A stretch of 64,000 nucleotides of DNA, from assembly GCF_963678975.1 (NCBI RefSeq), contig NC_089274.1:25767053-25831052 (forward strand), written 5' to 3'. Below are positions 1,641 through 61,349 of this stretch, one piece after another. Source of the stretch: Dysidea avara (lineage: Eukaryota; Porifera; Demospongiae; Dictyoceratida; Dysideidae). A program made the translations under genes and the position numbers. Every line of letters starts with the position of its first letter. The first letter of the stretch is position 1. Under the pieces are notes generated by a model, which saw nothing but the letters and a program-made list of their open reading frames with translations, ran no database searches and was not told where the DNA came from.

Positions 1641-2503
1641 CAGGGGCGGATCTAGGATTTATAAAAGGGGGGGGCTAACTCAAGGTACTAATCTCTTGGG
1701 TAGAGGTGTGCAAAGCACACTTCCCAGCATGCGAAGCATGCTGGAACTAGGGGGGTCTGGGGGCATGCCCCCCCAGGAAATTTTGAAAAATAGATGTTAA
1801 AATACTGCAATTTGGAGACATTTCCACATAAAATTCATACCTGTAGATATTTTATATACTGCCTTTAAATTATAGGTATGGCTCTCTGAAGCATTTTGCT
1901 AATGGAAAAGTTTGGGTAGGTACAGACAACCAAGTACACGATGCACCCCTCTCACAATTGTACAACACTGAATAGGTGCATGTTAGAATAATAATGTTGA
2001 AAGTGGAAAATTTTGAAATTTGAACAATACAAGATTGAATCTGAGAGCATTTTCAATGGAAATTGTGTACCTGAATTAAGTATTGCCATACATAATAGCT
2101 ACACAAGTAGATGCATGAATGAAGCCCTTTAAACAGACTAATGCACTTCATTGTATGTATAAGTGCAGGCAGATTTGGAAAAATTCCATAACAGAACCAA
2201 CTACATGTTTCCAGTGAATGCTCTATTAGAGTAGTTAGCTGACTGCTCTATTAGAGTATCTCGATCTTGTACACCTCCAATGCTGATCCGGGTCCTTGTT
2301 GCATAAACTTTAGCATAAATCCACTGATAATACCTTGGAAAGATGTTTATAAGGTGGTTTTATGAGTATTTGTATTATTAGTGATCATATAATTATGCTA
2401 AGACAAAATTTCATTATAATACTCAGCATATTGATCAAGTAAAGCCTAAAATATGAAGGGGGGGGCTTCAGCCCCCAAAGCCCCCCCCCTGGATCCGCCC
2501 CTG
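1641..2503. mobile_element. Non-autonomous TIR transposon, CAGGGGCGGAT family, 863 bp
   Basis: The left end reads CAGGGGCGGATCTAGG and the right end is its near-perfect reverse complement, CCTGGATCCGCCCCTG. Both ends continue into G/C runs. The flanking 5-bp direct repeat ATTAG (1636-1640 and 2504-2508) is the probable target-site duplication. No transposase frame is present. An internal block near 1750 (ggggtctgggggcatgc followed by a C run) recurs in the element at 49292-49590. The termini resemble hAT-type ends, but the 5-bp duplication differs from the usual 8 bp. Confidence 0.75.
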
Positions 2504-3260
2504 ATTAGTATGGGTAAACAAGGAAAGGTATATGTGTAATGCAAGTGGTGTACAAGGCAGGTTTAGGGAGGGCTGAAGTACAAATTTTTACTATGTACAT
2601 ACTTACTAGCTAGAGCTAGTGGAAGCTACACTACAGGTGCAATCACATCTTAAGCACATGTGGGAAATAAAAAGATGGAAAGAGTAAGAAGGGAAGAGCT
2701 AATCTTTTTAAGAATATCAGAGGTTAAAAAGTTGAAATACTCTAATACCACTACCCTCGTTCACTTAGTTAAAGTGGCTTACAATGCTTGTGCTCATTCA
2801 ACAAAATTCTGTCGAAACTATTTCTATATTCAATCTCATTAGGCTAAATTTGTAAAAAAATTCCTGTGGGCAATGCTTTAAGGCCTGACTTGGAAACATC
2901 CATTGCATATAGGTTAGTTACATGCTATCATTACACAACATTTAAAAACTGTGTACTTCCATAAATGAATATTAAGGTCACAAAAATTATTAACATGATA
3001 CATATTCAGTAATGGAGTCTATGAAGCCCCCTCTCCCACTTTACTAAGCAGAATTTCATTCAAGATCAAAAAATACTCACTCTAATAGAACAGTAGCTGT
3101 TGAGAGTGACACTATCCAGCTAATTGATGTATAGTATAACTGTCACTCTATGAATATATAAATTAATGGTAAAATTAAATTGAACGTTTAGGAAATATTT
3201 GTAAAACCACATTGTCCATAATGTATAGGTAATTTGTGGTCCTGAAATAATATAGTTGTT
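2504..3260. other. No gene seen
   Basis: This is AT-rich sequence with two copies of the dispersed TCTAATAGAACAGT-type motif (near 2737 and 3079-3094) and no coding signal I can support. Confidence 0.4.
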
Positions 3261-3722
3261 ATGATTTACAACCCCAAACATCTTGCAGACATCTTCAAAT
3301 TACACGTGCAGACACGTGTAGATATCTTCAAAAGGAAAATTGCTGACCAATACTATATACCACCCAAGCTGAGCAGCCTTCCACTCACTGTAGCGGCATT
3401 CAAACTCCACTTCCAACATGCCCACTTCCAAACAGCATTGTGGAAGGCTGCAGGCACGTCCTCGCTCCCAAATTTGGACCCACTGGATCAGAACTTCTAC
3501 CAGTTTTTAACCCACCAGGGCAGTTACCTGCACCGGATGAGGTGCTCAACCTCATCAGTTGTGAAAACTGGACACTTTGCTCTTGTGTTAAATTCACCCT
3601 TATACCTGCTTAGTTTATTTCAAATGTATGCATGGGACAAGCTAGCTGCCAAAACCCAAAGAAAGCAGACAGTGATGACAGTGGCAATGAAGAATCTGCA
3701 TAGCCAAGCAAGAAAGAACTGA
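3261..3722 (+). pseudogene. Decayed ORF of possible mobile-element origin, 153 codons
   Basis: The frame has the ring of real protein in its first 90 codons (PPKLSSLPLTVAAFKLHFQH, then TALWKAAG and LPNLDPLDQNF). This recalls the LPPT..L..H..RA.YQ...W pattern seen in repeated, uncharacterised proteins associated with mobile elements in cnidarians and sponges. The C-terminal third looks unrelated. No catalytic motif, neighbouring exon or repeat boundary was identified. It may be a chance frame; a decayed fragment is my preferred reading. Confidence 0.35.
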
Positions 3723-6600
3723 GCATGTAAACCATGGGATACCTCAGTTTTCTGAATTTCAGTATATTTTTTGTTCGTAATGTAATCATCTTGGCTTCTG
3801 CATTACCTTTGCAAGCATAAAATTGTTTAAAATTCCGATGTATCTATAATTGCATAGACTTTCAGTATTAGTATTATTAATGGTCATTACATAATAGCAA
3901 CAGTTATAGGCTCAAGGCCTTTGAATTTGTCCATATCCTGTTATACATAGTCCAATAATTATCAAGTCTATTCTTAAATGGCTGTCACTACATAATTTGG
4001 GAGGTTGTTCCAAGGGTTAATCACATGGTTCGAAAAGTACTCTGCCTTATTTGTAAATATGAGACAGTAAAAAATGTGTCCTCTGGTTGGTAAGTCTTTG
4101 TTTAGAGTAAAGAAGGAAGTGCAATTAACATCACTCACATCATTCACTTTTTGAATGCTACATCAAAATGCTCAATGTTTCACATCTGGCACTCTCCAGA
4201 TTTAGAATCAACACAAAAAATTAGTCTAGAAAAAGGTAAAAACTTATGTTATACTCTAAAACAAGGTCATCTGAGGCCGGTATAGCCTGGACCATATAAG
4301 GAAGTTAAATGTAAAAATGAAAATACTGCAAGGCAAGTTTTGGTCCAAACTGTTTGTTGCTATCACAAATCTATGAGTATAAAACTGGACTCACCAAAAC
4401 AATTTTATCACAATTCCCTAATAACATGAGCCACAAGTGATAATAATGATGCTCAAGATGTTCTTAGCTCTATATGAGATGTCTCTTTATAAAATCACTT
4501 GATAGTACTGCTGAGTCTTCAATATAAGGCTAACACATTATTTACTTTCCTTCTACATATATGCTGCAAAATGACTGTTCAATTAGAGTGGTTTACAGTG
4601 GAATCTGACACTCAGGACACTTGAAAATGTGGACAACTGCATAATCTGGACAGTTTGTAATGATCCTAAAGCATCCTACTGATAATCAGGACACCTTGAT
4701 AATCAGGACACCTTGATAATCAGGACACTTTTGGTTGGTCTCAAGGTGTCCTTAATATACAAGTTACTATACAAACAAGATTTAGTTATACTAAATACTT
4801 CACAAAATCTGCCCTGGCAAAATCAAATCAATAATTACTGTAATGTCTGTCCAGCTGCATTTTAAATTCATTTACAGAAGGAATATACAATAGATTGGGG
4901 TAGTGATTTCCAGTCATTGATTACTGTTACTATAGAAATTAGATTTTGTGTATGAATTAGTATGAGACTTGAACAATTTCTTTGTGTGACCACTTATTGC
5001 AAGTTAAAAAAATAATGATTATGAGTTTAATGCAAGTACATACATCAAATCATTCCTTTGTTGACAGTGTTGTAAAGATGGTATAGGTTTAGAGATGTCT
5101 TGATCTGTTATAAATTAATGTATATATAGATGCTGGGGCTTTTATGCTGTATTCTTTCAAGTTTATGATTGTATATAATTATTTCAAACATTTCAGTGCA
5201 CAAGTTAAAATAGTCTAATGGTTCATGTAGTATATCATGATGAAGAAAAGAAATGTTCAATTTTTAAGAAGATTATGTTCAAAAGATCTTCAAAAAGTTG
5301 ACTAATGTGCATGAAGGGTGCTCCTGACAACTGTTTAACATAAAACTTTCTCAATTAGAATGATACTGAAAGGGGAAATATGCTAGTCATTCGAAGGTAA
5401 ACTATCTATCCACTCCATTTGTAGTGTCTGTCCCATATACACTGAGGATATATGACTTGTGATAATTCACCAACAATTTCCCACCTGTTGTGGGGTAGGT
5501 GGGGCAGGGCATATTATAAACACTGATTTTTAATTGTACAATTAATTGGGATTTGCATAGCATGAAATTGCTCCCAGGAGTTTGGTTAAATCACGGGGTG
5601 GTAGACATTGTGCTAACAGTGCTGTTGTACAAAGTTGTGCTTGTATATTGTCTTTTTAGACCAGTATCTCTCTATATAGTTAAGCATGCATACATGTATC
5701 TTACTGGTGCAATAGGGTTGGGTGGTATGTTAATCGTCTAATAGTGTTGTGAAGTATAATGGCTCTTACATCATCCTGGGGCTCGTGAAGGGTAGTATAT
5801 ACAGTGCTTTGAGGGACCATTTTTTTGTTTGATGTCTTTTAAAGATTGTCCAAAGCAAATTACAGATGGTATATACTGCTTTGATGTTCTGGTTTCACAT
5901 TGAATGTGTTGTGGAATACAAACAAATTTGGATATCTTGTCTTCATCCTGGATACATTATCATACAAAACGGTAGTACTGTATATTAGGGATCATGTAGG
6001 TTTGCATTTTCTGACAAAACAATACAATACTGACCTGAGACTAGCCTTGCAATACTTTCGTGGTGCCTTGGCAGTATTGGATAGGCATACCCAAGCCCAA
6101 AAGTGCCTTCAGAAACTCTTCCAATGAGTTGCTACAAATTTTTTTAAAAAAATTATAGAATTTTCTACTGATTGACTTACTAATGCCTTCAACCAAGTAA
6201 CTGCTAAGGCTATGGGCTTGAAATTTTCACTGTTAAACGTCACTTCAGCCTGACAGGTACCTTTTGGCATATGTATGCACAATGGGCTTTATCTTTGTCC
6301 TCCTTTATGTCCCATTCATAGCTCAAGGTGTTGATTTGTGGTAGCACATAGCTAGTCGATTCACTATTTTTGTAATGGAACTATTCATCTTTTCAGTAGT
6401 AACTATAGATCTAGATCGATTGCAGAGGCGCTTCTCAAACTGCTCTTCATTTGTAACGCTGTGTAACAGACTGAACATATAGCTAAAAACGAAGTGTAAT
6501 GGTCACTTCACTTTAATTTTTAACCAGTAATCATGATTTAATGCTGACCTATATCTAAATGTCAATTTGACTTATCTACACATATTTTTGTAGTGTCTGA
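3723..6600. other. Non-coding, AT-rich; only the short tandem repeat noted separately
   Basis: No exon-like coding stretch with family features was recognised on either strand. One dispersed-motif copy (GACTGTTCAATTAGAGT) lies at about 4573. Confidence 0.4.
4680..4730. repeat. 17-bp tandem repeat, three copies
   Basis: TGATAATCAGGACACCT is repeated head to tail at 4680, 4697 and 4714, the last copy ending in TT. A related single copy occurs at about 17548-17572 in intron 11 of copine A. The surrounding text (CAGTGGAATCTGACACTCAG at about 4597) resembles the ends of pogo/Tigger-type elements, but no matching right end was found. Confidence 0.6.
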
Positions 6601-6715
6601 GGATTTCAAAGAATGGTCAACTCTATCTTATATGTCTAGTCAGACTGGGACCCTGTGTTGCTGGTGCCAGAGCCAGTGTCTAGTCACTATAGTATCTACA
6701 ACTTCTATGCGCATA

Positions 6716-7376
6716 CATTAGTGGTACTATACCAAATCAAGACACATGGTAGTGTGTCGTGTGGCCAAGAAAGCCAGCACACCACACCATGAGTATATTG
6801 ACAGGAAGAAAGAAAACAGCCTTTTCATGCGTGCATAGCTCCATGACCCCTTCTCCAAAGCACACCATTTTTGCATTATAACTGTCTGCCGCCATACAGT
6901 AAATTTGATTAAATTCGCAACAGCCATTTGCGAGATAAGGACATTCAAAGTTCCGTTTTAATTTTTTTGTTTTTTTCTTCTTATGCCGTATTGGGGCTAT
7001 GGGGCTTCAATTTATTTTTGCACACTTTGCTAAAATTACTATAAAACTCAAACATGTAACTTGATTGCCTCGATCTTTGGCACAAATAAAGAGCGTGTAA
7101 TGGTGGATTCATGTACCAAGTTTGCTGTGAATCTGAGGAATATTCAAGGAGTTATGAGCGTTTATTCATGTAAAAAAAAATCTAACTTCTGTCGCGGCTA
7201 CAGGGTAAACTGAGTATAGGAATAACTTTAATATCGGTGTGTAGATAGGCTGATCATTGTAGCAGTGCCTTTCACAACGGGGTAAAAACGGTGTACAAAA
7301 AGTGTCGGAAAAAAAATCTCACCAGGGGCCTCCATACCTAACACCTGCATCCTTAACTACTGAACCATTGCTACCT
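6716..7376 (-). mobile_element. Possible tRNA-derived SINE, antisense
   Basis: Read on the - strand, 7376-7315 has an A-box-like TGGTTCAGTAGTTAAGG and then CCCCTGGTGAGA, as in the 3' half of a tRNA whose B box has decayed. It is followed by a T-rich stretch and about 550 bp of non-coding body ending near a symmetric block around 6740-6790. There is no second copy in the window to define the limits, so they are approximate. Confidence 0.3.
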
Positions 7377-7684
7377 TGGCCGATCACCTCACTTAATTTT
7401 TGCTTTATAAATGAAATTTCTAGTTGAAATCTGCTTATAATCAAACATTTGTAATGTCATAGATCTACCAATAGAAGTACTAGATTGTGTTTCAGAATAT
7501 TCTATGTATGTTCTATTGAAGTCTTCAAAAAAATGTGCACTCTATTAGAGTATTACAATAACATTATCAAATATTGAATTAAATCATGCAATGAAAAACG
7601 TGTATAAGTCTGTCTTCAATAACCATCATTGTATCTGCATAGAAAAGAAGAAATGTGAGTAAAAACAAACCTCAAAGTCAGCAA

Positions 7685-7855
7685 AGCCTGGATGAAAAAA
7701 GTTGTAAATCAAAGGTGGCAGCCAAGAAATGGCTGCAATGATGTTAATGATAATTTTTTTTAATAATGGCTGTGTGCATTGTTAAAATTTATTAGCATTA
7801 ACATCATTGCAGCTATTTCTTGGCCGCCACCTTTGATTTCACAACTTTTTTTGTG
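7685..7855. mobile_element. Hairpin MITE with arms of about 65 bp
   Basis: The left arm (about 7700-7760, AAATCAAAGGTGGCAGCCAA and onward to GATGTTAATGATAA) pairs with the right arm (about 7795-7850, containing CATTGCAGCTATTTCTTGGC and ACCTTTGATTTCACAACTTT). The loop is AT-rich. A diverged relative lies at about 40785-40930, sharing CATTGCAGCCATTTCTTGG and GATTTCACAACTTTTT. Confidence 0.65.
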
Positions 7856-7859
7856 TGGA

Positions 7860-8995
7860 TTATCAGTTACATGCCTGTATGAAGGCATTGGACAAACTGC
7901 AAATGTCCGTAATATTGGTACCAATTTCATATGTCATGTTGTACTGCTCCAAAGAACCATCATAACATATTTGGCATTACGAAACAATCCACATCTCACT
8001 TGGCTAGTTATCCCAATCAGTCTTCATACCAAACAACCTCAGCTCACAAACTGGACCTGATTGTGTGTGAAAACTACACAGCCATTGACCATGGCCGGAC
8101 AGCAAACTTGGGATGCAGGCTGGTACATATGCTATACACTCAGTTGGATGACCAGTACCACCAGTAAGAACTCATGTGTCACTACAAACTTCTACTAGTC
8201 ACTTCTTCCTAACAGCCAGTAACTGTTCTGTCGAACCCCTAGCCTGCAGTACTCAGTAGCCTCTTTCAATATTCTTCTGCTATTATCTTAGTAAGGCCAA
8301 CAATTGTAAATGCCTTGTTTCCTGTCCTAATCAGACAAAAAATACCATGCTGGCGGGCAGTTATATTGTTAAAATAATATCAAGAATATTAAAGGAAGCC
8401 CATTAACTCCAAATAGCTTCTCTTTTTTTTTGTCTTAAATTCAGGAGACTAAATTCAAGGTTAGCTGTAATTTGAAAGATTTTACTAAGATTCAAACCTC
8501 TAAAAAGTTAGATTTGAAGTGTTGCAGTGTTTCCTGAGCAGCCAGAAAGGCGGCATTTACATAGAGAGCTGCTGGGTTTGCCATGCTCGTGGTGACACAT
8601 GCTATATAGCTACAGTACTGTACTTACTAGCCTGACTCTATACCATCAACTTCAACAGTATGAATTTTTCAAATGTTTTACACATTACAGTACTAAGCTA
8701 ATAACAGATTGAGAATGGGACTCGTGTTCAGTTTACCAATGGCTACTTGAAGGATTCACTGCTAGTATTAGGCCGGATGCAATGCACTAAATAACATCAG
8801 AAACTCACATCAGAGTCCACCTATCCAATAACTTAGTCTTCATCCCAATAACATGACCACACAACTGAACTCCCTGCCAGTATTAACTGTTTCTCATCCA
8901 GATTTAGTTCCATGCAGGCAGGTGGCCATTTATTATTAAAGAAAATACTCAAATTGAAAAATAAATTTTTAAAACTCCAAATCAAGCTGTCTAAT
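7860..8995. other. No gene seen
   Basis: Two overlapping short open frames around 7931-8167 lack recognisable domains. No repeat boundary was visible. Confidence 0.35.
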
Positions 8996-8998
8996 ACT

Positions 8999-9398
8999 TT
9001 TCTCACGTCAAAGATAGACCACTTCCATACTGCCAGTTGATACACTTGCGACCAGGATCAGGAAGTTTGATCGTCGAAATCTCGCCTTGATCGCTTGATT
9101 TCATCTATAAAAGAGCCTTGATTCTTGATCGTCTACCGTAAAATCTCGTGTTTGGTAAAAGTTAGCTTTCAAAGGTGCTTGGTCGTCACTTTTAGTTTTA
9201 CGGACATCTTGATTGCTTGAGTCACTGTACAAAAAAGCCTTTTGATCGCTTGATTGAATCTTGATCCCGGTGTTTCAACAGACAGTATTGAAGCATAGAA
9301 TTGAAGTGACTACCCCTTGATAGACGACTTGCTCAAGTCTGTGCTAGCACAGACGAGAGCACAGACTTGAGCAAGCCGTCTATCTTTGACGTGAGAAA
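8999..9398. mobile_element. TIR element of about 400 bp upstream of copine A
   Basis: The left end TTCTCACGTCAAAGATAGAC (from about 8999) is repeated as its reverse complement GTCTATCTTTGACGTGAGAA (to about 9397). The right side includes a second, tighter hairpin (9319-9384). The interior repeats TTGATCGCTTGATT-like words (about 9095, 9215, 9243). The right end is about 265 bp upstream of the copine A ATG, so it may contribute to the promoter. Confidence 0.55.
9319..9384. repeat. 27-bp arm hairpin upstream of copine A
   Basis: The arms 9319-9345 and 9358-9384 are reverse complements with one mismatch (GATAGACGACTTGCTCAAGT against its partner) around a 12-nt loop. Confidence 0.8.
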
Positions 9399-9663
9399 CC
9401 CGTCGATACTTTTAATTAATAAGGGAACGACTCTCCTCTACGCATGGTATCAGAGTTGTTCACCCTTTAGATAGCTACTTACTGGTCATGCTCACCCTTC
9501 ATGAACTGCATCCGAGTCCTCTATTAGAGATTACGTGCTGAAAACTGTCCGCGCTCCGTAATCTAGATAATGCGGCGAGATCACGCCACAACAAAGTAAA
9601 TAGGATGTAGGCGAGTAATAAATGACGGTGTAAATAAATATTTATCAAGGCCTATCTTCGACA

Positions 9664-23166
<13,503 letters not shown>

Positions 23167-23326
23167 CTGGCTGTATACCAATCAGTGTATGTCTGTAAAT
23201 TTTGTGTTATTTTTGTATACAATTTTTATTATCACAATTATTTTTCTATAATTATGTTACATGTCACGTAAGTATACGGATAAATCATTATTAAAGGTGT
23301 GTGCGTGTGCAGGCGGTACAAAAATT

Positions 23327-30657
<7,331 letters not shown>

Positions 30658-32715
30658 TTTTAAAGCAGCTAGTTTATTGTGTTGTGTGTATGTGCATAGA
30701 ATTTTAAAATATAGTTGTTAATCATTTATCCTTAAGTCTATTAGTGAGTGAATACAACCAACCAATATAGATTTAATATTCAAAGCTTACCACTCTCTAG
30801 AACCACAAGTTTGAAATTCCATACATTTCCGGTGACAGTTGGTCAGTGTTACATATGGAAAATGGTGGTAATTATGCATTCATTGCTTTCCACTCTTCGA
30901 TGTGTTTGTGGTAAAATTATCTGTTGTACTGACTTGTTGGTTTACTTTTTAAGCCAAAAAAGAAATTTACACAGTCTAGTTTTAATCTAACTCCATAGTT
31001 GTAATTCTATGCATAGTCTTCAAATTTTGTAAACAAGATATTCCATACTTCTGTTATACACTTGCAAGTGTATTCTATGGAAGTAATTATCTTCCTTAAA
31101 TGAGTGCAGGGGGAGGAGTATTCACTTAATTTCTAAGATAAATTGCAGCAATTTTGGTCTGCAGGCATATAGCAACATCATCTTCAAATCTGTTTCCATT
31201 GTTTTTGAAGATACACTGTGCAACAATCCATTGCAAGAGGAGTTCACAAAATTGCTGTGCATGCAAGAAGACTATAATATTTAATGTACAATGACAAAAG
31301 CTTTGTAATAGCACCAAAATTTGTGCATGCATGGTTTTCACTGAGATTAATACCAAACAAGTTCAATATCACAACAACTACAATGTATACATATATTATA
31401 TTATACGTTTTTGTCATTGGCTACATGAGAGGAAGCAGTACTTTATGGCAGTAACTATGTGTACTGTGATTAACAGATTCTCAGTTGTGCTAGAGGTCAA
31501 GCACTATCTACTGTAGTGGTCAAGTCCATGCAAAGCCACTATATAGTCAGAGTTTGGAACAGTTTTCCAAACCAGTTAAGTATCTGCATAATACACATTG
31601 ATTAATGTTTAGCTTATTATATTGAACTCGTATAGTGCATGTTGTACAGTGTCATAACAAGTTAGTAAAAGATTCAACAGTTCCTACAACTGCAGCTGAT
31701 AAATTGTTCCATTTTGAAACGATGTCTGGAAAGAATCAAAGCTGTGTTTGTAAGTATTAATTCTTGAAAATGGAATGGATCAACAGAAACACAATACCGT
31801 GCATGCTGGAAAATAAACCTGTAGTGTGCCACATGTTAGAACTAATGTTCTTCCAGCACACATAATAGCTCTCCAATTTTCTGCTTGATAGCTATCTTCT
31901 TTATGATTATGCACTGGTGTATTATGTCATGAACTTGAAGATCTAGAGAAATGAAAATTTAGTAAGGATATGTCAACTTGATTAGTTGTTTCACAGGCCA
32001 CCCTTTTCATAGGTTAAATAAGTTAAAAGGGAAGCTACAATAGACCCTGAATTATATTACATATGTGACTGGATAACTGACTCCTGGCAAGCTGTCTGGG
32101 AATTACTGCAATTCAATATGGTTTCAGTATCAAAATTCTGACTCCTTATTTTCGCAGGCTCATGGGTCCTCAAAGTGGGATGAGTAATAACGATTACTCC
32201 TTCTGTGTAGTCATGCAGTTCAATTAGTTATGGGTTGAATGTACGTACAGTAGTAGGAATTGCATATTCCAGGCTGTGTGACTCCCTTAAGACATGTCTA
32301 TAGACCAAAAGAAATTTGAGGATGAAGTCTCCACTGGTCTCATTTTTTAATTCTGCATTTTATAGTTCGTTTTGATGCACTGCATTTACAGGATTGTCCA
32401 TCTCTTAATACAACGATAACAGAACATAACCTGTTGATAAAAAGTATCATCAGAAGATTTATGAATAATATCAGCAGAATCTACGGAGGGAATATTGATG
32501 GCACTTCAAGCAACATACTGTACATAACATGTTTAAGAATCTCAGCAAGTGCTGGATTATTGGTTACTATGATAGATGTACTGAGCTAAAACTGAAACTT
32601 CTATCACCTTCTGAATCTGATAGGTTAATGTAGACACTTATACCTTGTGACGCCATCACATTCTTCCACAAAACCATATACTGGATATGACATATTAGTG
32701 CATTCATTGTGGTAC
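30658..32715. other. Copine B 3' flank; no further gene seen
   Basis: This is AT-rich sequence. The open frames here show no family features. No AATAAA was found close behind the copine B stop. Confidence 0.4.
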
Positions 32716-32722
32716 TATAAAA
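32716..32722 (+). promoter_or_regulatory. TATA-like box of the short-chain collagen gene
   Basis: TATAAAA lies 51 bp upstream of the ATG at 32773. The spacing leaves room for a start site about 30 bp downstream and a short leader. This is inferred from position only. Confidence 0.5.
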
Positions 32723-32772
32723 TGCATCTTTGTTGTCTCCATTGCTACTATTATCAAATTTATTGAGTAAAA

Positions 32773-33869
32773 ATGACTGCTACAAACAGTGGCTTGATCA
32801 TTACTTTGGTTTTAGTTCTACTGTGTTTGGGAAGTGCAATTGTGTTTGTGGGTGGCTGGTATTTCCAGTCATCACTGGTTGAATTGAGAGAACAGTTTGT
32901 GGCTCAACAACAAGAGCAGAAGACACAGATGGTAGAAGAGTTTGCACAGCAGAGGATAAAAATTGAGATACAAGCTGAAAAAATACAACAACTCAACAAA
33001 CAACTTAACCTGCTGCAACTACAAATTATCCAACATCAACCAACAGTGAGTTGGCTTATACCAGTAACTATGTACATTAGTAACTCTATATGTATTTGCT
33101 ATAGAGTAATGACCAGTTCACCAATGAACCTCTCAATACTAACTATACCACAAAACAACATACTGTAATGAAAAGATCTACCAGTTACACTGATAGTACA
33201 GTTGAAATCCTTAGAGGAAGAGATGGCCGAGATGGTAGGGATGGAGAAGCAGGTCCCAGGGGACTGACTGGACCTCCTGGACCTAAGGGAGACACAGGAG
33301 CTGCTGGTCCTAAGGGAGAAGGAGCAGGTGGAGTGGTGTATGTGCGTTGGGGCCATAACTCTTGTCCAGACAGTGGAGCACAACTAGTATACTCTGGCAG
33401 AGCTGGTGGGTCACATTATACTCATCAAGGAGGTGGTGGTAATCCACAGTGTCTACCACTTGACCCAAACTACCTCAAGACAATTAGTGGAAATCAAAAT
33501 CATGCCTATATTTATGGAGCAGAGTATGAACACACAAATGGACTAGTAACAAATTCACACAGTACAGATGTAGTATGTGCAGTATGTTATGTTCCTACAA
33601 GAAATGTTGTTTACATGTTACCAGCTAAGTATACTTGTCCAACAGGCTGGACCAGAGAATATTACGGTTACTTGATGAGTGAACGGCATGTACATCACCG
33701 ATCAACATTCTCCTGTATTGATCACAGTATCACATCAGTAATTGGTTCAACTGATAATCACAATGGTTTCCTGTTCTATCCAGTAGAAGGAGTATGTGGA
33801 TCACTACCATGTACTAATGGTCATTATGATCGATCTAAAGAACTTTCTTGTGCTGTGTGCACCAAGTAG
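32773..33869 (+). CDS. Membrane-anchored short-chain (spongin-type) collagen-like protein, 2 exons, 345 aa
   Basis: The exons are 32773-33045 and 33105-33869, with a 59-nt phase-0 intron (gtgagt...atag). The N-terminus has six residues, then a hydrophobic segment (about 7-31, rich in Leu/Val/Ile), so a type II membrane anchor or uncleaved signal is likely. A Gln/Glu-rich heptad-like stretch (about 35-87) should form a coiled coil that could trimerise the chain. About twelve uninterrupted Gly-X-Y triplets follow (about 129-164, starting GRDGRDGRDGEAG). The C-terminal domain of about 180 residues has VYVRWG, SCPDSGAQLVYSG, AGGSHYTHQGGG, CAVCYVP, CPTGWTREYYGYLM, PVEGVCGSLPC and CAVCTK. That pattern matches the C-terminal domain known from freshwater sponge short-chain collagen C4. 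The product probably sits at the cell surface or in the matrix. The ATG at 33168 is internal. A TATA-like box lies about 50 bp upstream of the start. Confidence 0.87.
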
Positions 33870-34254
33870 ACTTCAATGATGATACTTGACAATGCCAAGA
33901 TTACACATTCACTCACACAGTATAAAGTTTGCTAAATAGCTATTGGCCTTCTAATTTTATGATATATATGCATAATACATGTATATGCGCATGTGTAGTC
34001 AAGTGCCATTGTAACTTTATGAACCAGGAAAAAACGTAATTGACAGTATAAATTATAATTATAAATCTGCACGTGCAGCTTTACTGTGTATCAAATAATA
34101 AGGCATCCATGTGCATTGATTGTATATATATAAACTGCTGATGTAATGCACATATTTATCCCATGTGCACATCATTCTCTTGTGTGTGTGTGTGAGGCAG
34201 CACCTTGTCTCATTTAGTGGTGTTATATAGAATCGTTGTGAACATTTAGTTCTG

Positions 34255-38880
<4,626 letters not shown>

Positions 38881-38904
38881 TGTATGTGTGTCAAAGGTCA
38901 GTTT

Positions 38905-39165
38905 GTATCCAACTGTGTCTGCTGTGTCCTCTATGTTAGCTGTTTTCACTGTGCCTGCCATGTCCAACTGTATCTGCTGTGTCTGTTGTGTTAAATAGTG
39001 TCCACTGCTGTATCTTCTGTTTCCACTGTGTCTGCTATACCCAACTATAGCTATCTGTTGTATTTACTATGTCAACAATATCTGCTGTAACTACTGTGTC
39101 TGCTGTGTCCACTGTGCCTGTTGTATCCAGTGTGTGTACATATCCACTGTGTCTGTTGTGTTACA
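38905..39165. repeat. Degenerate 9-bp-period repeat
   Basis: Variants of TGTGTCCAC/TGTGTCTGC recur about every nine bases (38905-38995 and 39000-39165). The open frames across it are by-products of the period. Confidence 0.6.
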
Positions 39166-40115
39166 GAAGACATAATGGACATAGAATGGGTCTGCATTGT
39201 GAAGAGAATATTCAGGCAAATATAATAAATTGGTGTTTCATTATTGCTTTGTGTTTCTCGTTTCAATGTTAATCAGAGGTTGAATCTTGGTCACTGATGC
39301 CCTTGGGACCAGATGCTTTTCAAATAGCCATAATTCTGAAGGAACACATGTAAATTGAGGCATAAAAGCATAACTAAAATAATAAGTTTCAGTTACTCTA
39401 ATAATACATTCAACCTCTCTAATAAAATGGTCACTTTGCCATTAACACTGTTAAGATAAATTTCTGACACAAATAAATGATGCTGTGGTGTAACTGCATG
39501 GTGACATCATTATCAATGACCTAAACATATATGCTGGTAGGGATATTGATTGGGATATCTAAAGGTTATGGTTGTCTACAATTCTGATGCTAAAATAATG
39601 ATTCTAAGCAAAAACATTTTGTGATAATTTAGGAAAAGAGTTATAAGCTCTGTTGTAATATGTTAACTGCATACTAAGATCTCTAATAAACAGGGTTTGA
39701 TTATTTGTTGTGAAGCAAAGTGACCCGTTTCAATTAGAGCATTAATTGTTAGATGCATGTTCTATTAAAATAAATTGTATAGCACTCACTGAGTTTACTA
39801 TGTAAGCTGGATGTTGGGAATATTGGTGTACACATATATCATTTCACAAATACTGATATTCATGTAATTTATTAACTTATAGCTGATCTGTATATGCATG
39901 ACTGGATTTCAACCATATGAGCATATTTAATGTATCGAGTATTTAGTTTCTGAATGAAGCATTTAATGATGAATGGCTACCTATTTATGAATTGTAAATA
40001 GCTTCAATTGAAATCCATACCACAAATATAGCAGTTAAAATTTCCTTAATTAAGTCATGGTTATAGACTGCATGAATGAGAGATTGAATGTCCACTAATA
40101 TATTTGCTGGTGTAG

Positions 40116-40560
40116 AGAGCTAGTTCATTACAACTCACCTTGTAGGAAAGTTTAGATACAGTATACAAGTCACTCAGTATAGATTTCAGCTACATTACAA
40201 GTCTATAGAGCTCAGCTATGTAGTAAGTCTTGCTGTGGAAAGTTCAGCTATGTAACAAGTTACCTAGCAGAAAGTTCAGCTGCATTACAAGTTACCCAGT
40301 ATGCTAAGAATTCAGCTATATTACAAGTATCCCTGTAGAGACAACACAAGTCACTCAGTAGGAGAGTTCAGCAGCTATAATTACGTCAAGTCACCATGTA
40401 TAGAGAGTACAGAGTTCATCTGCATTACAAGTGACTCAGCAGTGAGTTCATTTGAGCTGCTACATTACAAGTCACCCTGTACAGAGTCCAGCTGCATTAG
40501 AAATCTCCTGATAGAGAGTTTAGAAGTCACCCAGTATATAGAGTTCATTATGAGCTCACT
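40116..40560. repeat. Degenerate minisatellite, unit about 35-45 bp
   Basis: A unit like GAGTTCAGCTACATTACAAG followed by TCACCCAGTATAGA recurs about ten times with many substitutions and indels. Confidence 0.7.
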
Positions 40561-40784
40561 CTGGAGTGAGTTCCACATGAGTTGTATAATGAATTGCCTT
40601 TTTGGCACATGAGGTAATATTTCATATTAACAATTAGCTAAAGTTCAAATTAAAAAAAAATCTCCTCTTTTCCCTACAGTAAAGAGAGAGAGAGAGAGAA
40701 AAAATCAGTCCCCAGTTTTGGATAATTACCAAAAGGAGTGATATCCAGCTATACCAAACACAGCCTAGCTGTGGAAAAAGGATG

Positions 40785-40930
40785 CAGCCTCCAAGAAAGC
40801 CAGGAAATGTCAATTATTTTTAATGATCACTCGTCATTAAAAAATTATAGACATTAGGATCAGTCATTGCAGCCATTTCTTGGTCACCATGATTTCACAA
40901 CTTTTTGGAGGCCACACTTTATAGAATAAA
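40785..40930. mobile_element. Diverged relative of the hairpin MITE at 7685
   Basis: It shares the right arm CATTGCAGCCATTTCTTGG...GATTTCACAACTTTTT with the first copy. Its ends GCCTCCA(A) and TTGGAGGC are short inverted repeats. Confidence 0.5.
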
Positions 40931-41439
40931 GTGAGAATATTTTGATGGTATGTGCCACCCATAAGTTCATTCCAGGAAACTTTTTTAAAACTACGTATAG
41001 AGATTCTCTCATATTGAAGCTAAGAATATTTCTGATGGTTGCATGCTGTGCCATTTTAAAAGCATTTAGACTTTTCTATGAAATTTAACAGAGATTAATA
41101 GGCCGCTGCAAGTGGTGTCCCCTTCGGAGTATATCTGATTAATGGGCCATACAACAACCACAATTTTAGTTACCTGCCATGTGGTTTACTGCATTGTTTA
41201 GTTCTGATGTTGGTGGTGCAAAATACCCTCACCAAGATAATGTGGTGAAGATAATTTGGTACTGAAACTTGGGCACAGGAAGCCATCCAAGGTTTGCCCT
41301 ATATTGTGACACATGGTCATACTTCTGCAAACCACAAGTTAGACGCACAGCTTTACTTTGCATACGCCTTTTTTGAGCAGGCGCTTATAATTTCTAATTG
41401 ATAAGTGCCGTGGGAGAAAAAGTGGCCTGTCCATGTGAG

Positions 41440-42112
41440 ACTAGTTTTGGGGGTCACCAACAAAAAATTTATCCTTATAGTCTAATACCATATAGCTTTA
41501 ATGTCTCAAGGGGCAAATTTTTTGAGGTTGAGAAATAGATGAATTTCATAATAAGGAATTTTAAACCGTTGCCCCTAGCAACCTGAATTTTAGGTGCGGT
41601 GAATGTCAACAGTAACGTCTCCAATTTTTAAATGGATAGCATATATATAGGTCATAATTTAAAGTTTGCAGTTTTCCCATACATTATCTATGGGAGGGGT
41701 TAACAGTTGCCCCTTCTGGGAAATCACATGGATAATGTATGGAAAAACCACAAATTTCAAAATGTCATAGCTATCTCATGACCTATATACTCTATCATAT
41801 TAATTAAATTTGTTGTTTCTCCATACATTATTTATGTGATTGACCAGAAGGGGCCCCCTCTCATATACAACGTAGCTATGGAAAAGCGACAAACTATAAA
41901 ATGTTATATCTCATGTAAAATTGGAGATGTTACTATTGACATTTACCCCTACAAATATTGTAAAATTCAGGTTGCTAGGGGCAACTTTTGTTATTATGAA
42001 ATTCATCCATGTTGCTTTTTTTTTTTTTTGCAGATTTGCAAACACTCCCAAAATGGTATAAATATAGAGGTCTAAAGTTTCAAGGATAAGATTTCGCTGG
42101 TAACCCCCAAAA
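41440..42112. repeat. Foldback element, arms of about 300 bp, upstream of copine C
   Basis: GGGGGTCACCAAC...CTTATAG at the left pairs with the right end near 42060-42110. Inside, GTTGCCCCTAGCAACCTGAA pairs with TTCAGGTTGCTAGGGGCAAC (the right partner begins near 41966). Further inward, the CCATACATTATCTATG-type words also pair around a centre near 41750. No coding frame is seen. The right edge is about 100 bp from the TATA box of copine C. Confidence 0.75.
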
Positions 42113-42212
42113 AAGCGAAATCAGGGAAAATGCCCCCTCGAAATATTAAGGCAATCAGTGTCACCATAGGGTGTCTATTATCTATGGTGTCACGTGAGAA
42201 TGTCAAATTTGA

Positions 42213-42220
42213 TATAAAAG
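42213..42220 (+). promoter_or_regulatory. TATA-like box of copine C
   Basis: TATAAAAG lies 53 bp upstream of the copine C ATG. A CACGTG E-box sits about 20 bp further upstream, at 42191-42196. Copines A and B show no equally clear TATA box. This is a positional inference. Confidence 0.5.
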
Positions 42221-42272
42221 ACGTAGCGCTTGCGTAACCTGTGCTTAAAACTAAAACTCTAGTCTACAAACC

Positions 42273-55424
<13,152 letters not shown>

Positions 55425-55571
55425 TGTGATGAAATGTTTTGTTTGATTAAATACGTACAGGTGTGTGTATGAGTGAAGAAGATTTATATTATAAATAATG
55501 GTCATGAGTATGTAAGTGTATATTGATCAATTGTTGACTGTAGCAAGCAACTTTTAACCATAATCTTTCAG

Positions 55572-55577
55572 AATAAA
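55572..55577 (+). terminator. Candidate polyadenylation signal of copine C
   Basis: AATAAA lies about 150 bp after the copine C stop codon. An ATTAAA at 55446-55451 is an alternative. No comparably clear signal was seen for copines A or B. Confidence 0.4.
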
Positions 55578-55842
55578 TCCTCAGACCTCTACAAATGTAT
55601 CCAATACAACTTTTCTACGTTTGCAGATGCTAGTAATGCAAAATGCATGATAAATTCTGAGCGTTCAATTAGAGCATTTCCAATTGTCTGCAGTCCCAGT
55701 TTGGCCCACCACAACGTGGTAATTTAAAAAAAAATAGCTGTCCGTGAAACTGTAGCTGGGCAACTCGATAAGGTTAGTGCTCGTCTATTGTTCGGTGCTA
55801 CAATCATTATCCATCATTTAGTGAACCAACTATATAGTTGAT

Positions 55843-56254
55843 GGTCTCGCGGCGCCCGACCCTAAAAAGAGGGTCTGGTGAAACTACAAAAAGTTTGGCG
55901 CTGCCGGAATGTTGGAAGCTTCCAATCAGATCGCTCCATTTCAAATTGATTATGTAATGCGTACATTTCAAAAGATTCGCGGCTTACTGTTAATTACATC
56001 CGGTGACTCTGCCGCTTAAACTCATTGAGAAAACAGCCATACAATTGTGTTGGGTTCGTTTTAATGTTGAATAAATAAAGTAGCGCTATTAGTTTGGTGA
56101 TGCTGTAAGTGGATCTGGTTGAATGGATGTCGTGACGTAAACAGTGCACTTACGTAGCACGTAAAACGTCATCCAATAAACATTCCAGAGCTCAAACTTT
56201 TTGTACAGAGTTTCACCAGACCCTCTTTTTAGGGTCGGGCGCCGCGAGACTAAC
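55843..56254. mobile_element. 412-bp TIR element with 8-bp target duplication
   Basis: The arms begin GTCTCGCGGCGCCCGACCCT and run on through AAAAAGAGGGTCTGGTGAAA. The right arm is the reverse complement over about 41 bp. TAGTTGAT flanks both sides (55835-55842 and 56255-56262). The interior is non-coding and relatively GC-rich. Confidence 0.8.
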
Positions 56255-56305
56255 TAGTTGATAGATAGGCCTACTCAATTGAAAGTGATTAGTACTAGTC
56301 ACTTC

Positions 56306-56348
56306 ATGATGGCGTCGTCTTCAATCAAAATACCCGGCGGAAAAACCA
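56306..56348 (+). CDS. Candidate first coding exon (partial gene)
   Basis: ATGATGGCGTCGTCTTCAAT and onward encodes MMASSSIKIPGGKT, followed by a consensus donor GTAAGT. The composition and donor look like a gene start, but no continuing exon was recognised downstream. It could be the 5' end of a gene whose other exons I did not recognise, or chance. Confidence 0.3.
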
Positions 56349-56349
56349 G

Positions 56350-58160
56350 TAAGTATCCAGCTATACGCCTATAGATGTCATCATACACCACCTGTCATAT
56401 GATGTCATTGTCGTGCTACCATAGACCCGGAGGTGTACTATTATCTATGGTGCTACATGCCAACCTTAGTCGGCATCTAAGTATAGGTGCCGGGAATGGA
56501 ATTCACTGCCACCGCAACTAATTGAACTGAACACTTTAGGCCACTCCAATTGGTAATTATGTTTCTGGTCCACTGCCTGCATTCTTTTTTGGAAAATGTG
56601 AAATTTCAGAAATGCACTGGGAAAATGCCCGCATCAGATTTTTTTAAAAGCCAGATTTCAGAAACAAATATTGGGCTGCAACAATCAAACTATCATAATT
56701 TGCCTTTTATCAGTGAAAACCTGCAAGAAATGGGCATAGTGCAGTAGTGCATAGTACAGATCGATATACTCTAATAGAACAGTCAGTAAATCACAAAAAT
56801 ACTCTAACTGAGCATTCACTTCATTGTTGCTTTGTTGCTCGCCTACATCTAAAACTAAACTTCAAATGACCAGAAACATAAAAACAAATTGGAGTGGCCT
56901 TAGCTACATTTTCAAACTTGATTGTACAGCACTTATAATTTGTAATTGTTTGGCTTTGCTGTCTGCCCTCCCCCCCCCCCCCCCCCCCCTCCAAAAAAAA
57001 ACAATAATAAACAAACAAACAAAAAAAGACATGCAGTGCTAGGATTTTTCAGTGAATAAAGAATGATGTAATAATTACCGAGATTATTATATCATTCCTT
57101 AGGGGTGTTTACCCACTGAAGAATCTTAGCAATAGCAATGCTGTCTGTCTGGCCAGCTAAAACTCTGTTTTGATGATTTTTCAGGGACAACAGCTTCAGC
57201 TGTGCATGCCACCATAGATATTAGAGCCTACGTAGGCTCTAATATCTATGGTGCCACTGCCCTGATATAGACAATATGTTTCCAGTTTAGTAGTTTCTCA
57301 TCCTCAAGCAATGCGGAGGAGGGGGGAGAGGCTTACATTAATTAAAATTAAGGCAGGTTATATAGAGCCGGTACCTGTTACACTATTTCGCCGGCTATTT
57401 TGCTGGCAGTGGAGGCTAATGAGAATGATGCCTTGTGATGTCATTCAGCAGTAGTGCTGGCACTGCTGCTCACTCACTACTGGATGACGATTTGTGACGT
57501 CACCCATCAGCAGCTGTGAGCATGATGTACCCGCAATGCATTATGGTCCACGTGATTGTTTGTATACTGAAGGTTGCTGCTTTCGCGTGTGATAATAAAA
57601 AAGACGTTCAGCCAATGTCGGAATGGAAGTATCACGGAAACTTCCGGAGAAACATCGGAGAAGTAATCATGCTTTGTGACACATGATACATGGTGAAAAA
57701 CCGATCCTTCAACAACTGCACCGCAAAATTTAATCAAAATTGCTACCTAACTCAATGTATCTAGGTGAAAATGGTGGACAGGTGTAGTGCGAAAGACCAT
57801 GCAAGAAAGAATAACGGGTAGTGATTTCTGTACTCAATGTTGTTGAACACAATAAACCAGCTTAAGCACTAAAGGGATTTTTACAGTAGTAAATGAAGAT
57901 GTGAGCTGAGATTGGGCGAACCCTTTGAAAACTTAGTACAGTGAATAATATATAGCTACTCTCATAAGCATCAAGGCATTTTAAGTGGGTGAAATCAATC
58001 GATCAAGACAAGTTTAAACGATCAAAAGTTTTATCCTAGTCACAAGAGTATCAACAAGCAGTGTGAGAGCTGGACATGATAGTACTTAGCTAACACCAGT
58101 TCCTTTAACAAGACAAACATCAAACATTATTTTTTAGTACAAGTATTACATAAACTCAAT
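56350..58160. other. No firm gene; short palindromes and a poly-C tract
   Basis: It contains a C run at about 56969-56989, paired dispersed motifs at 56767 and 56799, and CpG-containing sequence at 57400-57760 that might be promoter-like. I found no exon I can defend. Confidence 0.35.
57205..57255. repeat. Near-perfect 46-bp palindrome
   Basis: CCATAGATATTAGAGCCTAC is followed by its reverse complement, GTAGGCTCTAATATCTATGG. It is the longest member of the CACCATAG...CTATGGTG group described in the findings. Confidence 0.85.
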
Positions 58161-61177: not shown

Positions 61178-61349
61178 GTAGTGACATTCGTTACTAATTT
61201 TGTAGTAACCATCACTACCATGTAGTGACCTTCACTATACTGTGTAGTGAGGATCACTACAAGAGTAATGAAGGTCACTACAAAAGTAGTAAACGTCACT
61301 ACTTGAAAATAGTGAGTATTGTGGCAGAAATTAGTAGTGAAATTCACTA
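61178..61349. repeat. Array of 17-bp palindromes, GTAGTGANNNTCACTAC
   Basis: Seven recognisable units start at 61178, 61202, 61222, 61244, 61265, 61286 and 61334, with a degenerate one near 61309. Spacing is 20-25 bp. Each is a near-perfect palindrome with variable centre bases. Confidence 0.8.

Follow-up and report, generated by a model that had tools for sequence, protein, structure and literature searches.

A short motif scattered through a 64-kb window of the Dysidea avara genome (C3:25,767,053-25,831,052 of the 550.8-Mb assembly; "the window" is this whole stretch) is, as far as we have seen, not a stand-alone repeat of 15 bp. We consider it probable, at about 0.6, that the 15-bp word is the core of a putative protein-binding module of about 28 bp that is carried by many miniature inverted-repeat transposable elements (MITEs) and has been captured by them, exchanged among them and dispersed with them. 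Several classes of MITE carry and disperse the module, the number of its units changes within one family, and it is common to families that have no other detectable similarity in their interiors.

The first-pass annotation of the window had placed full-length copies of the motif at 26 positions, and a recognisable copy lies within 6 bp of every one (26/26). The weakest, listed at 39412, starts at 39415 and has 5 mismatches, yet scores 22.5 bits in a position matrix; the copy listed at 9519 starts at 9517, with 3 mismatches. The impression that the motif is far above chance was correct. When matches to three consensus variants were compared with 20 simulated second-order Markov sequences, there were 14 copies with at most one mismatch (0.0 expected), 23 with at most two (0.95 expected, simulated maximum 3) and 34 with at most three (9.15 expected, simulated maximum 14), so that part of the three-mismatch copies may be chance matches. 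The literal word, at up to two mismatches, occurs 16 times versus 0.32 expected from 100 dinucleotide shuffles, and no other dispersed 10-mer in the window is as over-represented as CTCTAATAGA (11 loci vs. 0.12 expected). Copies had also been described as often doubled; we confirmed seven pairs, all head to tail, at spacings of 17, 21, 25, 25, 29, 31 and 33 bp. The single copies at 28751 and 53009 were duplicated along with a copine exon (98% identity) and therefore represent one event rather than two. The copies, and the larger repeats that hold some of them, are given below with strand where one applies; TIR denotes a terminal inverted repeat and TSD a target-site duplication.

1641-2503: MITE family F25, which carries a module pair; TIR CAGGGGCGGATC, 5-bp TSD ATTAG
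2219-2258, plus strand: module pair within F25, 25 bp spacing, kept in 21/21 F25 copies read, window copy included
3078-3092, minus strand: module copy, 1 mismatch
4576-4590, plus strand: A6-variant copy of the module, followed from 4594 by a Tigger-like end, TACAGTGGAATC
7509-7552, plus strand: module pair, 29 bp spacing
9517-9531, plus strand: weak copy, 3 mismatches, which may be chance
15616-15630, plus strand: module copy upstream of a copine exon
16547-16561, minus strand: module copy, A6 variant
21470-21501, minus strand: module pair, 17 bp spacing
26979-26993, minus strand: module copy
28385-28424, plus strand: module pair, 25 bp spacing (28385/28410), in an apparent decayed Tigger-like MITE at about 28352-28514, judged by eye
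28751-28765, minus strand: module copy immediately upstream of a copine exon; duplicate at 53009
30021-30035, plus strand: A6-variant copy of the module within an intron of a copine gene, with a half copy at 30051
37994-38172 (approximate): old dispersed repeat holding the seemingly lone 38023 copy
38023-38037, minus strand: exact module copy
39394-39429, minus strand: degenerate module pair, 21 bp spacing
39727-39772, plus strand: degenerate module pair, 31 bp spacing
47614-47628, plus strand: module copy, A6 variant
53009-53023, minus strand: module copy, paralogous duplicate of 28751
55662-55676, plus strand: module copy, A6 variant
56539-56899: MITE family E, which carries a module pair; TIR GGCCACTCCAATT, 3-bp TSD TTA
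56767-56814, minus strand: module pair within MITE E, 33 bp spacing

Across the assembly, exact matches to TGTTCTATTAGAGTA number 30,545 (15,271 and 15,274 on the two strands), versus a single match (0 + 1) for the reversed-letter control. For an estimate of density, 10-kb stretches were taken at twenty round coordinates across contigs 1 to 8; together they held 47 matches at up to two mismatches, about one per 4 kb, with none in 5 of the 20. Scaled to the genome this gives about 130,000 copies, part of them due to chance or to another repeat (three matches of the form TTTTCAACTAGAGTA, in L017 and L024, are of the latter kind); the module is thus present at roughly 10^5 places. The full unit, TGACTGYTCTATTAGAGTATCTCGATCT, is built around an 11-bp palindrome, CTCTA-T-TAGAG, and the wider consensus from 67 distinct sites is TGAC-TGYTCTATTAGAGTA-TCTCGATCT. 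Its 5′ edge is sharp, position -3 being T and position -2 being G at 62/67 distinct sites each, and its 3′ tail is looser; the usual form in the wider sample is TGCTCT or TGTTCT, preceded by TGAC and followed by a looser TATCTCGATC.

The head-to-tail arrangement seen in the window holds across the genome. Exact CTCTATTAGAGT pairs separated by 2-32 bases are head to tail in 3,584 cases and head to head at 11 places. Pairs within 100 bp in the DNA that was fetched lie on the same strand in 69 cases and on opposite strands in 8, although these are not independent, as many come from few families and 60 loci had been chosen for the exact word. Among the genome pairs listed, almost every linker has TGACTG, or a sequence one base away from it, at its end, which indicates that the unit starts at TGAC, and a complete 28-bp tandem is present at C1:8435838. 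A 4-bp periodicity of the spacings (17, 21, 25, 29 and 33) was considered and rejected, as the pairs are members of few families; contrary to such a rule, genome pairs also occur at 20, 22, 23, 27 and 28 bp.

The first-pass annotation had seen no larger element around most copies. This is wrong for at least the 2219/2244 and 56767/56800 pairs and the copy at 38023, all of which lie inside larger repeats. Alignment of the flanks of the window sites, a check it had proposed, gave similarity beyond the motif that was not above random. For each larger repeat we scored 40 places, window copy included. F25 (863 bp; 3159 first-look candidates; 91-98% identity) has boundaries at which most whole-genome BLAST matches end. 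Family E (361 bp; 565 candidates) is flanked by TTA in the window, and identical TTA or TAA flanks were found in 27 of the 29 copies whose ends were located, ends not being found in 4 of 33. Ends are largely common among the scored places of both F25 and E. Copies of the 38023 repeat (94 candidates) are 68-90% identical to the window copy. Both units are kept in 33/33 E copies and 21/21 F25 copies, and among these no copy has an empty site for the module; apparent empty sites in the compared DNA were not clean and were set aside.

Terminal repeats also flank the module in larger fetches from elsewhere in the genome. When 123 site groups were clustered by their masked flanks, 56 components were obtained, 10 with at least two members and 46 single, the largest being chained. 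The motif is spread across many repeat families, contrary to the case that the first-pass annotation had named as refuting it, in which all copies would lie within one already described family. In a first scan around sites, TIR arms scoring at least 14 were present at 7/47 sites vs. 4.5% of 400 control positions. Paired TIRs enclose 19 of 143 distinct motif clusters, a count made with a TIR list that was read off module-bearing loci, and so is biased toward carriers, and on clusters many of which have only about 270 bp of flank, leaving longer elements invisible.

We tabulated 20 elements, 175-1006 bp long, with identical 8-bp flanks in 10/20 and identical 5-bp flanks in 4/20; L010 showed no TSD and has doubtful ends, the TSD of L095 is imperfect, and the left end of L057 is cut off. 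The module is common to several classes of TIR and TSD. An 8-bp TSD accompanies TIR TAGGSACCSGCC in L045, L049, L098 and L099, and TIR CAGGGCCGCCCA in L013, L096, L097, L105 and L106; a 5-bp TSD accompanies TIR CAGKGGCGKAGC/GATC in the window F25, L032, L023 and L094; a 3-bp TSD (TTA/TAA) accompanies TIR GGCCACTCC in family E, including the window copy; and L028 and L039 are Tigger-like, with ends TACAGTGGAACCTC, both beginning and ending with TA. From their TIR and TSD patterns, these carriers are putatively MITEs of hAT, PIF/Harbinger and Tigger/pogo type, which they resemble in their terminal features, namely TIRs together with 8-bp TSDs, TSDs of TTA/TAA, or ends of the form TACAGTGGAACCTC; the module itself differs from the terminal repeats of these carriers. 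In one palindromic family the module is located at the centre. Family F17 has an adjoining minisatellite of about 30 bp, and its terminal repeat was not established.

Other inverted-repeat structures were noted. A MITE-like element without the module lies in a copine intron at 54056-54907 of the window (TIR CAGTGGCGTAGC; exact TSD not found), and an inverted-repeat element at 55840-56254 has arms GATGGTCTCGCGGC and 5-bp flanks TAGTT; arms that hold a similar AGTCTCG are present in L027 and L032. Positions 1-1800 of L013 form a tandem array with a period of about 27 bp that mimics inverted repeats.

The carriers were compared by BLAST of their interiors with module and ends masked. No similarity was detected between most groups, which leaves nine or ten interior groups; in two groups with TAGGSACC ends, shared DNA was limited to the stretch adjoining those ends. 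L095 matches L096, L105 and L106 over 128-170 bp of interior at 68-76% identity although its terminal repeats are different, which suggests that different types of element have traded interiors. L098 and L093, which belong to one MITE family, have 2 and 3 units of 21 bp, respectively.

In the three carriers tested, the module was conserved relative to the rest of the element, in one of them (F25) only mildly. In the 38023 repeat (21 sequences), core diversity of the module is 0.060 vs. a mean of 0.218, the lowest of 239 windows, and the module still ranks first of 92-135 windows (means 0.16-0.17) when partly unaligned ends are dropped. For MITE E, of whose 40 scored places 33 were used, unit 1 has a diversity of 0.0225 vs. 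0.094 and ranks 5 of 297; 624 of 100,000 random draws of 19 columns were equally low, and in an initial subset of 13 the unit ranked first. F25, compared over a local stretch in 21 sequences, has a diversity of 0.010 in unit 2, 0.0195 in unit 1 and 0.039 in the remainder. F17 and F25 copies selected mostly for the exact word were kept out of the conservation test. Taken together, the three carriers favour the view that the module may be under constraint.

These data are consistent with a model in which the TGACTGYTCTATTAGAGTATCTCGATCT module resides in small non-autonomous MITEs, as one to five units that are mostly head to tail. Mobilised by their own transposases, the MITEs would have spread the module to its many genomic places, and decayed MITEs would leave behind, in introns and intergenic DNA, motifs that seem to stand alone. 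The palindromic core is a putative site for a sequence-specific, probably dimeric, host DNA-binding protein. Carriage of the module might benefit the element by opening chromatin, by transcription or by better mobilisation, and such an advantage would lead to its being captured, swapped between elements and retained. Three guesses had been offered for the motif at the outset, and of these a protein-binding site fits best, given the palindromic core and the conservation inside carriers, with binding itself still putative. A bolder version, which we hold only tentatively and regard as doubtful, is that the module, as a site for a host factor, aids any MITE capturing it, whichever transposase is used, and spreads by interior exchange; it would then be a trans-superfamily "booster" or hyper-passenger, with selection acting on the 28-bp unit above the level of the transposon family.

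Several observations weigh against a functional, repeatedly captured module. Of 58 sites in the 200-kb sample and the 64-kb window, elements bounded by terminal repeats hold only 11 (10 placed by the list-based scan and one more, in L015, by a list-free census). The module is present in 6 of 11 elements found with the TIR list, the other 5/11 being of the same TIR classes without it, and the list-free census of TIRs and TSDs, with the L013 tandem array left out, gave 28 candidates, 6 with the module, one of which is spurious, its arms being copies of the module, leaving 5/27. Random capture of so common a module into new MITEs is not negligible. As to conservation, copies of the 38023 repeat were found by BLAST, in which matches across conserved DNA are favoured, and almost all of the matches span the module; in MITE E, unit 2 ranks only 39 and other segments equal the module in conservation, TTTGTTGCTGAATTCCGCC ranking first; and in F25, diversity as low as that of unit 1 is seen in 25% of windows, and as low as that of unit 2 in 10%.

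The modest signals in F25 and in unit 2 of E are what might be seen if the module were a neutral passenger that by chance entered the interior of one or a few MITEs, multiplied along with them and then reached others through capture, nesting or recombination, with its mild conservation due to sampling, to the youth of the families or to gene conversion among units in tandem. Interior similarity across TIR classes and the change in unit number fit this account as well. It is a possibility we take seriously, but we think it unlikely to be correct, as the module occurs with an identical sharp TGAC edge in nine or ten interior groups with no other detectable similarity and is first or nearly first for conservation in two of the three families tested. 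The many sites not placed in a bounded element (47/58), together with the copy number of about 10^5, the many contexts and the dissimilar flanks of the window copies beyond the motif, could instead point to an element of about 28 bp that inserts itself, often into MITEs. The annotation had likewise suggested the core of a very short mobile repeat; the copies are indeed mobile DNA, but the mobile units found are MITEs of ordinary size (175-1006 bp) that carry the module. We consider self-insertion of the short unit improbable, since neither a target duplication nor a clean empty site for 28 bp was seen in the DNA compared, every E and F25 copy read holds the module at a constant place, the "single" copy at 38023 proved to be part of a larger repeat, and pairs are overwhelmingly head to tail.

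Still less probable is that the copies are host cis-regulatory or chromatin sites selected where they stand, with MITEs as incidental neighbours. The palindromic core and the intronic copies near copine exons would suit such sites, but many copies lie within transposons, window copies have decayed to differing degrees, and about 10^5 copies are too many for individual selection to be plausible. The proposal that paired copies fold on each other as an RNA hairpin precursor can be given almost no credence. Two dimers do fold better than shuffles (z scores of -2.9 and -4.6), as would follow from a palindrome repeated in tandem, but two monomers do not (-1.0 and +1.1), and in the 67 distinct sites none of the 10 position pairs showed compensatory changes between the arms above the level of shuffles.

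The nearest precedent for a captured and dispersed protein-binding module is the E2F site of Brassicaceae, amplified by MITEs and Helitrons (Henaff et al. 2014, cited in PMC12595863). According to PMC12595863, the E2F motif is carried by hAT, PIF/Harbinger and MULE MITEs and is mostly far from genes. Both cases have one short motif in MITEs of several superfamilies; the E2F motif is 10 bp long with a known binder, whereas the sponge unit is about 28 bp, is often arranged in head-to-tail arrays, occurs in an animal and has only a putative binder. A Porphyromonas gingivalis MITE with an internal minisatellite, as described in PMC4596501, is alike in having tandem units inside a MITE; here, one unit is common to many unrelated MITE families. 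The module was not described among the matches listed in literature searches on the literal motif, on sponges or Amphimedon, and on MITEs with shared interiors, subscription papers being mostly outside their scope. An exact-pattern scan of viral and prokaryote-genome collections gave no match or, at four loci, one or two isolated matches, which resemble phage coding sequence and were taken as chance.

If the module is indeed a binding site that has been repeatedly acquired and kept by unrelated MITEs, it would amount to a natural screen for a sequence that promotes the success of DNA transposons in the genome of an animal, and would provide a route for laying some 10^5 near-identical protein sites across introns and intergenic DNA. 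A warning also follows: in genomes of this kind, a short word that is over-represented may be a transposon module rather than an individually selected regulatory site.

The window contains three tandem copine-like genes on the plus strand, at 9600-20500, 23250-30660 and 42250-55430; one exon was confirmed as copine by Pfam (E 1.5e-16). Exon identity between the genes is a mosaic, from 72 to 98%, which suggests gene conversion of some exons. An open frame at 33105-33869 has collagen-like repeats, with Pfam Collagen below cut-off. A long open frame on the minus strand at 51622-52527, continuous with a CA repeat, resembles by eye the reverse transcriptase of a long interspersed nuclear element and gave no match to Pfam. 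Long imperfect palindromes with arms 69-85% identical, possibly fold-back elements, are present at 7695-7851, 11612-11719, 41535-42010 and 61202-61302. Finally, a dispersed repeat shared by L023 (3600-3760) and the window (7250-7425) looks by eye like a tRNA-derived short interspersed nuclear element, with a GGTTCGAACTC-like box.

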